Notes under the pieces: model-generated
What the model was told of the DNA's origin: nothing
The model's database searches: none
The model's input: the letters and a program-made list of their open reading frames with translations, nothing else
Source: an uncultured Eubacterium sp.
GTDB lineage: Bacteria > Bacillota > Clostridia > Lachnospirales > Lachnospiraceae
NCBI GenBank assembly: GCA_945920185.1
Contig: CAMEJP010000002.1
Location: forward strand, 1 to 64,000
Direction of reading: 5' to 3'
DNA: 64,000 nt
Part shown: positions 1,555 through 4,403 of the stretch, piece after piece
How positions within the stretch are numbered: position 1 is the first letter of the stretch
How the letters are laid out: each line of letters begins with the position of its first letter
Translations under genes and position numbers: made by a program

Positions 1555-3216
1555 TTAGCGATGTTTTCTTCGCGGTCCACGAGAAATCTCCGGCACATTT
1601 CTGACATCTTCAAGGTCGTGCTTTTTGATTAAGTAATCAACCGAATCTAAAGGATTTGAAAGAAAACCATCTGCTTCTTTGCCAAGAACAGCAAGGTCTT
1701 CATCGCTTACTTCATCTCTGCCACCGCTAACAAGTTCGATGGTTTTAGCAGCACGCTTTTCTTCATAACCACGATAATTCAAAGCATATTTGGATGCAAG
1801 TTTCAATGTAAGAGGCGTAGCCTCATTTATTGCACACTGGTAATCAAATAGCTTTTGAGTTAATTCTTGGTAATAATTTTTAAGCGTTTCACGATACCAA
1901 GGGTCTTCCTTTTGTTCTAAGTACCACATCATTTTTTTGATGTCAAAAATGGAAATCATAATAGAACTACGTCGCTCTTCCATATTGCTGGCAAATTCAT
2001 TTGCAATATCAATATCATCCTCGGTAGCTTTGCTTACATCGAAATTCCTAAGTTTTCTAATTCCTTCAAACAACTGTTTACTCTTTGTGTTAGCTCTGCT
2101 TGCGAGTTTTCTAGCTCCGTCACGGATTCCTGCAACTCCTTCATTACTGTCTGACAGGAACGAGCTAATTCCAAGGATTTCTTTGATTGTTCCTCGTAAT
2201 CCGCTACGAGCTTCTTGAGTGAATCTATCTGTTTCTGTAGCTTTTCTATCGTTTCTCTCAAGGAAATTATCTCTGCTTCCAGAGTAGCCACCTCTTTTAA
2301 GAGCTTTTTCTCCCTCGCCACGGACATCTCGTACTCGCTCTTCCAATTCTCTTTTTCCCTCGCAGATTGCAGCTTCTTCAAGGTCGAATTGGTCTTGTAA
2401 GTCTTTGTTTCTTGTAATCTCATTTATAATAGCCTCCTTTGAAAAATCCATATTAAAGGTTTTGGTTAAAGTCTTATCTCTGACTGTAACCGTACCAAGT
2501 TCAAAAGTAATATATTTCTTTTTCCAGTTAGAAGACACGACAATATCATATTTGCGGTCAAGCTCCCCGATAAATTCATCCTTAGTACAAGCGTAGGATA
2601 GAACATCAAGTATTTCTGTAGCAATTTCTGATAGTCTTGCCTGCTTTTTGTTGTCGGTAAGCAAATTGTAGATGTCTTTCTTATAAGAAGTGATTGTACC
2701 CTCTTCGATTTTCTTGCCGTTAAAGTGCTTTCCTTTTTGAGTAATGCTAAGACCATAGGACGCACATAATTCATCGTTTATATCTTTTGCATTTTGCAGT
2801 TCCTCCGGGTTCATATGATATTTGTGTCCGTCTATCATTGATACAGAGTTAAGCACGATATGACAGTGTAAGTGTTCTCTGTCAGTATGTACTGTCACAA
2901 GCGTACAAAACTCTGGAAATACTTTTTCTACCCATTGTTTAGCAATATCAAGAGCAACTTCCGGTGTAATGTTTTCATCTTTATGCCAAGAAATAACGAA
3001 GTGCTTATACATTCGCCCACCGGTTTTATTGAAAAGCTCTTTGGTCTGCATAAAATGTTGAAACACTTTATCTGCAGTAACATCAAGATGAGGATAATCT
3101 CCAAGTACAAGTGTTAGGTCAGATGTAGTTTTCTTATCTTGTAGCACATATCCAAGAGTATTTCTTAATGCTGCTCGGGAACCTGAGCGTGAATTAACTG
3201 ACTTAATAACTGACAT
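1555..3216 (-). CDS. Relaxase / mobilization nuclease (MobP-like)
   Basis: A 553-residue relaxase of the PF03432 type, which nicks one strand at oriT and stays covalently bound to it during transfer. Visible motifs are a likely catalytic tyrosine at residue 23 (LGYVLQDKKT) and the metal-binding histidine cluster at residues 110-119 (HTDREHLHCH). An AAAGGAGGTG ribosome site lies 8 bases from the start. The start overlaps the end of mobC by 52 bases, which points to coupled translation. The region of residues 265-393 is a charged linker and carries a second, nested gene in another frame (2034-2423). The C-terminal third is helical with no recognised domain. Family assignment is firm; the exact MOB subclass is an inference. 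Confidence 0.9.
   Translation of the reverse strand: MSVIKSVNSRSGSRAALRNTLGYVLQDKKTTSDLTLVLGDYPHLDVTADKVFQHFMQTKELFNKTGGRMYKHFVISWHKDENITPEVALDIAKQWVEKVFPEFCTLVTVHTDREHLHCHIVLNSVSMIDGHKYHMNPEELQNAKDINDELCASYGLSITQKGKHFNGKKIEEGTITSYKKDIYNLLTDNKKQARLSEIATEILDVLSYACTKDEFIGELDRKYDIVVSSNWKKKYITFELGTVTVRDKTLTKTFNMDFSKEAIINEITRNKDLQDQFDLEEAAICEGKRELEERVRDVRGEGEKALKRGGYSGSRDNFLERNDRKATETDRFTQEARSGLRGTIKEILGISSFLSDSNEGVAGIRDGARKLASRANTKSKQLFEGIRKLRNFDVSKATEDDIDIANEFASNMEERRSSIMISIFDIKKMMWYLEQKEDPWYRETLKNYYQELTQKLFDYQCAINEATPLTLKLASKYALNYRGYEEKRAAKTIELVSGGRDEVSDEDLAVLGKEADGFLSNPLDSVDYLIKKHDLEDVRNVPEISRGPRRKHR
2034..2423 (-). CDS. Nested coiled-coil protein inside relaxase gene (MobB-like?)
   Basis: A 129-residue reading frame lying wholly inside the relaxase gene, same strand, different frame. 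It has its own near-perfect ribosome site: AAAGGAGG, then 9 bases (CTATTATAA), then ATG. The product is almost entirely a coiled coil from residue 35 to 125, with Leu/Ile/Val repeats spaced by charged residues (for example EVATLEAEIISLRETIEKLQ). Such a coherent heptad pattern is not expected of a chance shadow frame. Nested accessory genes inside relaxase genes are known in ColE1-type plasmids (mbeB and mbeD within mbeA) and in staphylococcal mobilizable plasmids (mobB within mobA). A relaxosome or membrane-tethering role is inferred by analogy only. Confidence 0.75.
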   Translation of the reverse strand: MRLQETKTYKTNSTLKKLQSAREKENWKSEYEMSVAREKKLLKEVATLEAEIISLRETIEKLQKQIDSLKKLVADYEEQSKKSLELARSCQTVMKELQESVTELENSQAELTQRVNSCLKELENLGISM

Positions 3217-3578
3217 ATTGGTTGCACCTCCTTTATCAATCCCATCACATCATCTGTCATTTGGTTTAGTTCATTCTTTGTAGGTAATTGTCCAGTGGTA
3301 TTTGCCACCTTTGCCATCTGATTATGATTAACGCCCATTCCTCTGGCTTGATTAAGTATGCCAATAAGATTAGCGTTAATATCTCTCAAATCTTTTCTAG
3401 TATCCGTATCAACCACTTTTGCTCCTTTGATGGCATTAAGAATAAATGATTGAGCTGTCATGCCGGTATCATCAAGCTGTGACAAAAAGGAATCATATTC
3501 CTGCTCGGACATATAGAATTTAATTTGAATTGGTCGTTTGCGTTTCGGGTAACTGTCTATTTTTCTTTTTGTTTGCAT
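3165..3578 (-). CDS. mobC: MobC-family mobilization accessory protein
   Basis: A 137-residue relaxosome protein that would bind near oriT and help the relaxase open the nick site. The N-terminal part is strongly basic (KRKIDSYPKRKR), then a ribbon-helix-helix-like segment, then the MobC signature region around residues 68-95 (ANLIGILNQARGMGVNHNQM), related to the N-L-N-Q-I-A pattern of the family. An AAAGGAG ribosome site lies about 9 bases upstream of the start. It is first in the mob operon and overlaps the relaxase start by 52 bases. Confidence 0.85.
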   Translation of the reverse strand: MQTKRKIDSYPKRKRPIQIKFYMSEQEYDSFLSQLDDTGMTAQSFILNAIKGAKVVDTDTRKDLRDINANLIGILNQARGMGVNHNQMAKVANTTGQLPTKNELNQMTDDVMGLIKEVQPICQLLSQLIHAQVPEQH

Positions 3579-3654: not shown

Positions 3655-3770
3655 CGGAAGGGTAATCCAAAAGGGCAAAGCCCTGTTGGTGGGGTGCAGG
3701 GGCAAAGCTCCTAATCTTACATAAGGAATAGGGAGTGCGTTTTGTGTGCAATTTCCTATTCCGTTGGAAG
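3655..3770. other. Candidate origin of transfer (oriT)
   Basis: Directly upstream of mobC, in the usual place for oriT. It contains a short hairpin AGGGC-AAA-GCCCT near 3670 and a clear inverted repeat GGAATAGG ... CCTATTCC (about 3726-3764) enclosing about 22 bases. The GC-rich, G-tract-bearing stretch between them stands out from the AT-rich surroundings. A nick site cannot be named from sequence alone. Confidence 0.45.
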
Positions 3771-3784
3771 ATGTGCTCAGGTTG

Positions 3785-4203
3785 TTAGGGCTGAAAGCCT
3801 TAACTGGGTCCCGAGGGCTAGCCCTGGCAAGCGACCATTTGAGTCACTTCGTAAGAAGTGGGTACTCATAATGGGAAGCTTGCCTATCAGCAGATAAATA
3901 AAAAGTGGGATTGGATGGTCGTTTCAAGGGTGAAACTTCCAATCCCACTAATGCGTAAATTCTGCTGATGGTGGGTTTGCGATTTTGCCATGATGTGTCC
4001 AATATTGCAGCCGGTGTGTAAATTTGGATGCAGGTATTGAGGTTTGCATCGGGGCAAAATTGCTTCGTCATCGGCAACGATGGCGAACGGGATGGATATA
4101 ATTTTTTGGGTAAAGTCAGATTGGATAGATAAATATGTGATGTCATTTTGATGCCACTATATGCAGTCAATCTGACGTCATTTCTTTGTTTTTATCCATC
4201 CGG
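3785..4203 (+). ncRNA. Candidate large structured RNA or multi-hairpin DNA region
   Basis: Helices tile this gene-free stretch almost end to end: TTAGGGCT/AGCCTTAA (3785-3803); palindrome AGGGCTAGCCCT (3814-3825); GGCAAGC/GCTTGCC with inner GAGT/ACTC and CACTTC-GTAA-GAAGTG (3826-3884); TCAGCAGA/TCTGCTGA enclosing an 11-bp stem GTGGGATTGGA/TCCAATCCCAC and GTTTC/GAAAC (3887-3968); GCGATTTTGCC/GGCAAAATTGC (3979-4063); TTCGTCATCG-GCAA-CGATGGCGAA (4064-4087); an outer GGATGGATA/TATCCATCC with inner GTCAGATTG/CAATCTGAC (4088-4203). Two loops, GTAA and GCAA, are GNRA tetraloops only when read on the plus strand, which favours a plus-strand RNA. No protein reading frame fits. It matches no RNA class I can name; it could also be part of oriT or a single-strand replication signal. 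Confidence 0.5.
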
Positions 4204-4298
4204 AGAGATATTGCTGATTGATGATAGATAATTGTGAAATACAATGTAGATTATGTTTAACATAGGGATTTGCTTTGTTCCCGAGGTGGGCTAAGAAG
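4204..4298. other. Element edge, no gene seen
   Basis: AT-rich stretch between the hairpin block and the pilin remnant. It holds small palindromes (ATTGT-GAAAT-ACAAT and TATGTT-T-AACATA) that might be recombinase or terminal sites. No gene and no recognisable terminal inverted repeat. Confidence 0.3.
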
Positions 4299-4403
4299 TT
4301 TTTTGTGGTGCTGGTGGGTCTTGTAGTTCTTTTTAAAAAAGAGATTACAGGTCTTATAAAGGATATACTGTCAAAAGCTACTTCTCAGGCAAAGGATTTG
4401 TAA
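4299..4403 (+). pseudogene. 3' remnant of Flp-type Tad pilin gene
   Basis: A frame open only from 4266 encodes, in its last 34 codons, the end of a Flp-like pilin: a hydrophobic stretch (VVLVGLVVLF) followed by an amphipathic tail KKEITGLIKDIL and a stop three bases before the next gene. Clostridial Flp pilins have just this ending after an E-x-V-L-I-I-type segment. Here the leader peptide, cleavage site, Glu and first half of the helix are missing and replaced by unrelated mobile-element DNA. The position immediately ahead of the other Tad genes supports the call. No start codon or ribosome site remains, so it is very likely dead. Confidence 0.75.

Follow-up and report, generated by a model that had tools for sequence, protein, structure and literature searches.

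What is the function of a gene-free stretch of DNA that lies next to the mobilization genes of a transposon and folds, almost from end to end, into abutting helices? The question is raised by positions 3785-4203 of the window, by which we mean the whole 64,000-nucleotide stretch analysed here (contig CAMEJP010000002.1 of an uncultured Eubacterium sp. in the Lachnospiraceae). The original prediction, made from the letters of this DNA, took the stretch for a possible large non-coding RNA, apparently multi-domain, on a mobile element. The analysis described below leads to a different answer: the region is very probably the oriT of a MOBP/MobC mobilization module together with its leading region, and not a large RNA. 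Origins of transfer are a known kind of element; what is new in this variant is a conserved, covarying structure that starts where the transferred strand is predicted to have its 5' end.

On this reading, a large group of mobilizable elements in gut bacteria, the transfer signals of which are missing from the libraries searched, gains a candidate oriT and a candidate site of nicking. It also means that selection keeps secondary structure in the very DNA that is predicted to enter the recipient first. If the hairpins matter, they would offer a handle on the recircularization and second-strand steps, which decide the establishment of transferred genes in gut bacteria. The oriT family is absent from Rfam, and no description of it was found in the literature searched, the reach of which stops short of most subscription journals.

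A folded stretch beside mobC

The physical description in the original prediction has held up well. Helices with nested stems tile 3784-4201 with almost no spacer in a fold with DNA parameters, and 3760-4215 gives a z of -8.60 on the + strand and -8.59 on the - strand, with 0 of 100 shuffles per strand equally stable. Since the two strands fold nearly equally well, the fold alone is no pointer to an RNA over folded DNA. The folded structure reaches leftward to about 3660, with extra hairpins between mobC and 3784, and four other genera have conserved the part at 3660-3715. No sign of a gene appears in 3785-4203, which lies, as had been described, between mobC and the element edge near 4304; its location on a mobile element beside mobC, and the presence of structure beyond that of an ordinary oriT, were likewise borne out.

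The stretch had not been matched to tmRNA, RNase P, 6S or group I and II introns, and this too agrees with the searches. The Rfam 15 covariance models, at gathering as well as permissive thresholds, gave nothing relevant in the window for these classes or any other, and ARAGORN reported neither a tRNA nor a tmRNA in it. No Rfam family matched at the motif in 11 relatives; at the L075 locus, a group II intron (RF02001, RF00029) lies on the same contig, away from the motif (L075:3563-4092). Both of the GNRA loops to which attention had been drawn exist in the window (CTTC-GTAA-GAAG at 3847-3858 and CG-GCAA-CG at 4072-4079). The first of them is not conserved, since relatives usually have GGCTTGCC as the loop of the nic-proximal hairpin. 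The features of the region are collected in Table 1, in which helices F and G are supported by the fold of the window, whereas the conservation described in the following sections is that of D and E.

Table 1. Position, strand and supporting evidence of the features of the mobilization region.
Feature	Position in window	Strand	Evidence
MOBP-type relaxase gene	1555..3216	-	Pfam Relaxase PF03432, hmmscan E 3.7e-31
MobC / NikA-like relaxosome accessory gene	3165..3578	-	NikA-like E 5e-9, MobC PF05713 E 5.9e-5
Accessory inverted repeats, mobC to oriT core	3663..3762 (3667-3689, 3698-3712, 3725-3762)	+	DNA fold
Helix B, hairpin GTTAGGGCT-GAA-AGCCTTAAC	3784..3804	+	Fold; counterpart hairpins in the corresponding position in relatives
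Candidate oriT inverted repeat CCCGAGGGCTAGCCCTGG (relatives TCCAAGGGGGC..GCCC.CTGG)	3810..3827	+	Core alignment
Helix C, stem GGCAAGC / GCTTGCC around nic-proximal hairpin 3835-3874	about 3826..3884	+	Fold (stem also given as 3828-3882), alignment
8-nt spacer GAAGCTTG and predicted nick 3882/3883	3875..3883	+	Spacing kept in relatives and distant plasmids; MOBP consensus
Helix D, predicted 5' end of transferred strand	3883..3969 (stem 3886-3894/3961-3969, inner 3904-3949)	+	Covariation, 33 loci; arm-swap control
Conserved linker, window GGTGGGTTT, relatives GTGGTYTT	3970..3978	+	GTGG(T/G)YTT in 42/53 distinct loci
Helix E with nested stems	3979..4063	+	Covariation, 18 loci
Helix F, hairpin with GCAA loop	4064..4087	+	Fold in window
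Helix G with nested stems	4090..4201	+	Fold in window
Right end of the transposon (approximate), with the 3' half of the interrupted Flp-type pilin gene	4304..4403	+	5' half on contig C41; joined halves form one pilin ORF

A conserved core adjoining the relaxase genes

A DNA search of 397 genomes of the family found the region in four other genera, where it adjoins mobC, and in a fifth (G329), where it lies away from the transposon edge. When loci were collected from a relaxase alignment instead, a common core was recognised upstream of mobC in 63 of 80, on the strand equivalent to the + strand of the window; among the 17 relaxase loci without a recognised core, some are truncated contigs and others may have diverged. 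In the alignment the core reads TCCAAGGGGNN..CCC.CTGGCAAGTTTAG, followed by one or more hairpins and then by GTGGCTTGCCAC..CGAAACTTGCC. Its stem has undergone a compensatory change at the inner end, being GGCAAGC/GCTTGCC in the window and the L046 family and GGCAAGT/ACTTGCC in the other loci (C-G as against T-A).

The linkage of this core to relaxase genes is tight. A covariance model of the core alone, run over the 397 family genomes and 391 genomes of the class, found 22 sites, all 22 of which adjoin a relaxase gene on the opposite strand in one relative orientation, several of the genomes concerned having also given training sequences. A short-pattern search that allowed 2 mismatches returned, outside mob loci, chance-like matches only, and a direct DNA search of plasmid and phage collections gave no match to the region. 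The genes next to the region, for a PF03432-class relaxase and a MobC/NikA-like protein, are those that a MOBP-type oriT requires.

A minimal version of the core is present in five distant plasmids of Firmicutes and Fusobacteria. These small mobilizable plasmids (pCD-METRO, pTRACA73, p19YCFAH0.3Co2-1, p19YCFAH0.3Co2-2 and Cetobacterium somerae unnamed6) share with the window the inverted repeat, the arrangement CAAG..hairpin..CTTG, the 8-nt spacing and a hairpin right after the predicted nick. They differ in having a shorter oriT region and a near-consensus mob promoter near hairpin D; neither the linker GTGGTYTTG nor helix E was recognised in them, and their relaxases show an identity of only about 33-38%, in alignments that cover at most half of the protein.

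The predicted nick site

The cleavage site of MOBP relaxases is (C/T)ATCCTG^(C/T), directly preceded on its 5' side by an inverted repeat (PMC3772185). In 21 of 45 distinct cores, an automatic finder placed the end of the inverted repeat or hairpin 8 nt before CTTG^C; in many of the remaining cores an internal mismatch shifts the detected end to 14, and the 8-nt spacing is visible by eye, as it is in the distant plasmids (GGAACTTG^C, GATACTTG^C and GTATCTTG^T). The window motif AGCTTG^C and the Lachnospiraceae motif AACTTG^C each match the MOBP core ATCCTG at only 4/6 positions, which in the case of the window tells against the reading; the Cetobacterium motif TATCTTG^T matches at 5/6, and pTRACA73 has ATACTTG^C. 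From the spacing and the consensus we infer a nick at 3882/3883 on the + strand. Helices B and C would then be the oriT proper, and the ~320 nt that hold helices D to G (3883-4203) would come at the front of the strand predicted to be transferred.

The IncP plasmids offer a useful comparison, for which we take the nick position of RP4 to be established knowledge. In pBS228 (NC_008357), as in the window, the mobilization genes (there traI and traJ) lie on the - strand to one side, an inverted repeat stands directly 5' of a nick motif on the + strand, and the leading region is on the opposite side. The nick motifs themselves differ, being A(A/G)CTTG^CC here and (C/T)ATCCTG^(C/T) in IncP/MOBP. 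Unlike in IncP, the predicted nick falls here within the 3' arm of a stem, GGCAAG/CTTGCC.

Hairpins on the predicted leading side

The excess of folding is a local property. Over 54 loci it is limited to -300..+300 of the predicted nick, with mean tile z values of -2.38, -3.32, -3.46 and -2.49 inside this span and of -0.27 to -1.07 outside it; in the IncP control, z is no lower than -1.6 across the first 300 nt. Helix D starts 2-4 nt past the predicted nick. Along the T-strand, a stem of 6 bp or more is first met at nt 2-6 in 35 of 50 loci, as against nt 61 in the IncP control.

Helices D and E both covary across relatives, a check that had been proposed together with the RNA reading. In both helices the arms were picked by complementarity, which inflates the pairing, and loci without a recognised partner arm are omitted: for D (33 distinct loci, in an alignment of the two arms joined by a fixed spacer with the loops removed), standard pairs make up 91.9% against 60.4% after shuffling and double-change cells number 94 against 31, while for E (18 loci) the corresponding figures are 96.5% against 59.4% and 53 against 17.5. 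When the alignment of D is slid out of register, 33-53% of the pairs are standard. Because of the inflation, arms were also swapped between loci. The threshold was then reached in D by 77% of own, 12% of foreign and 6% of shuffled arms, and in E by 69% of own arms against 16%. The 3' arm of E lies about 80 nt past the linker in most loci.

The pairs that depart from the Watson-Crick type carry information on the strand. Wobble-type pairs are few in D (about 9 of 273 paired cells). In the helices near nic, read on the + strand, G-T pairs number 62 and A-C pairs 28 (p 0.0004), as against 33 and 25 in control stretches. These counts suggest that it is the + strand, in single-stranded form, that is under selection, with the mob mRNA of the - strand an unlikely target; the asymmetry fits a + strand RNA and a transferred DNA strand alike.

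Two variations on hairpin D are worth recording. At several loci (L071, L075, L078, L086, L091, L094, L097, L098, L103 and L120), a near-GATTTRGAAGCTTAGGCGGTC motif is conserved in its loop and the stem is variable, which suggests a protein-binding loop. At L106, which has a minimal oriT, the bases that follow the predicted nick, CCAATTTACTC, can form pairs with GAGTAAATTGG, which lies just before the inverted repeat, in place of folding into hairpin D.

A possible role in the recipient

In the series of events that we envisage, the inverted repeat and the 3835-3874 hairpin would serve as binding sites for MobC and the relaxase, the latter of which would cut the + strand after GAAGCTTG and stay on the 5' C. 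The + strand from 3883 rightward would be the first DNA into the recipient, and the entering single strand may fold there into hairpin D, the linker GTGGTYTTG, hairpin E and a set of lineage-specific hairpins. Most likely, these hairpins would act on the single strand; candidate roles are to cap its 5' end and position the relaxase and the ends for recircularization, and/or to start second-strand synthesis, in the way of sso1 in ICEBs1 (PMC4595007). The two C residues after the predicted nick could pair with the GG of stem C or with the GG past stem D, so that a switch of pairing on cleavage is possible. We would tentatively go one step further and propose, as a possibility that falls short of probable, that the leading ~100-300 nt form a conserved single-stranded DNA device, in which a 5' hairpin with the relaxase attached is followed by a fixed linker and then by another hairpin. 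The device would work in the recipient with neither a sigma-70 promoter nor any known motif of a single-strand origin (sso), and it would represent a new class of leading-region signal, widespread among Lachnospiraceae mobilizable elements.

A more specific form of the oriT reading would make the hairpins an sso, or a single-strand promoter for the host RNA polymerase in the recipient, after the manner of sso1 of ICEBs1 and Frpo of F. We regard this as quite possible, if not as the outcome to be expected. The position in the leading region, the strand and the several stem-loops over ~300 nt are all as it would have them. In ICEBs1, sso1 lies downstream of oriT and depends on its structure and its orientation (PMC4595007), and it resembles the region here in occupying the leading side of oriT with several stem-loops over about 400 bp; however, it lies beyond nicK, whereas the hairpins here start at the predicted nick, and no sequence relation between the two was apparent. 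Frpo of plasmid F sets the precedent for a single-strand promoter (PMC11541004), and Frpo/ssi of F-like plasmids, which are defined by -35 and -10 elements in a paired stem, are likewise folded single-stranded DNA in the leading region. Unlike these, the structure here starts at the predicted nick itself and immediately serves no leading gene, and no -35/-10 site with at least 10/12 matches was found in 0..+330 of the window or of nearly all Lachnospiraceae loci; a strict Frpo-type promoter was dropped for this reason. Sites resembling CS-6, an sso motif, numbered 1 against 1 in the control, which is no enrichment.

Other readings of the structure

The oriT with its leading region has also to be weighed against a structured non-coding RNA transcribed from the + strand beside oriT. 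It would work either in trans or, on the relaxosome, in cis, much like the small RNA with which Salmonella Genomic Island 1 (SGI1) serves its own mobilization. Such an RNA would agree with the covariation of D and E, with the G-T excess on the + strand and with the GNRA loops in the window, and we nevertheless think it unlikely. Its precedent, the sgm-sRNA, is encoded between mpsA and oriT of SGI1 (PMC9299015) and is likewise a structured non-coding stretch by oriT and mobilization genes; the mobilization proteins of SGI1 are, however, tyrosine-recombinase-like, whereas a relaxase is encoded here and no promoter was found. Promoter and terminator signals in the window are not above chance. Rightward sigma-70-like sites number 0-3 per 100-nt bin over 61 loci, with almost none near nic in the 56 loci of Lachnospiraceae type. 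The absence of Rfam matches in the window and at the 11 related motifs, the unconserved GNRA loop and the scarcity of wobble pairs all tell against an RNA, as do a structure that straddles the nick motif and 22 motif copies that are all tied to a relaxase in one orientation. Together with an inverted repeat of MOBP type, the 8-nt spacing and a nick motif, these observations replace the large RNA of the original prediction with what we infer to be an oriT, an outcome that the prediction had itself named as speaking against its proposal.

A role of the stems in the 5' leader of the - strand mRNA for mobC and the relaxase, for example as an attenuator or an autoregulated operator, is very unlikely. 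In the five distant plasmids (L041, L042, L043, L044 and L045), a near-consensus promoter does point toward mobC; it is located inside or next to hairpin D, within about 20-75 nt of where the nick is predicted. This promoter is, however, missing from the window and from all Lachnospiraceae loci examined, and it is the + strand, not the strand of the mob mRNA, that shows the excess of wobble pairs. Lastly, sites at which a recombinase would bind the end of the transposon (arm sites of attR) are scarcely credible and were rejected, for although the stretch is no more than ~100 bp away from where the Tn554-like element ends on the right, the structure follows mobC and not the integrase, and L017/L092 (G329) and many other loci carry it away from the flp edge, among other neighbours.

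The host transposon

The host element is a Tn554-like transposon (a name that we assume for it from the tnpABC layout) that carries the mobilization module and splits an Flp pilin gene. The window begins at the end of its contig (C2), and the rest of the element, its left half, is on contig C41 of the same genome. This half encodes a TnpA that shares 57% identity with its counterpart in a relative. It also carries the 5' half of the pilin gene, an ORF homologous to the 105-aa one at the left end, and two more large ORFs where the relative has its two other integrase-family recombinases. To the right of the element come the 3' half of the pilin gene, at 4305-4403, and then tad-like genes. In the relative G196, the same genes encode three integrase-family recombinases, a DUF6262 protein and an actin-like (ParM/Alp) protein.

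Tn554-like mobilizable transposons have hit the same codon of the Flp-type pilin gene, in the tad cluster, in at least four genera. The loci with a split pilin gene are that of the window (~4304, with ~12140 of C41; L131), L013/L019, L014/L020, L021/L023 and L022, and the right junction is also present in a fifth genome, G285. These pilin-inserted transposons share the three integrase-family recombinases, the DUF6262 protein and the actin-like ParM, and their cargo varies and includes DNA methyltransferase and helicase-like genes.
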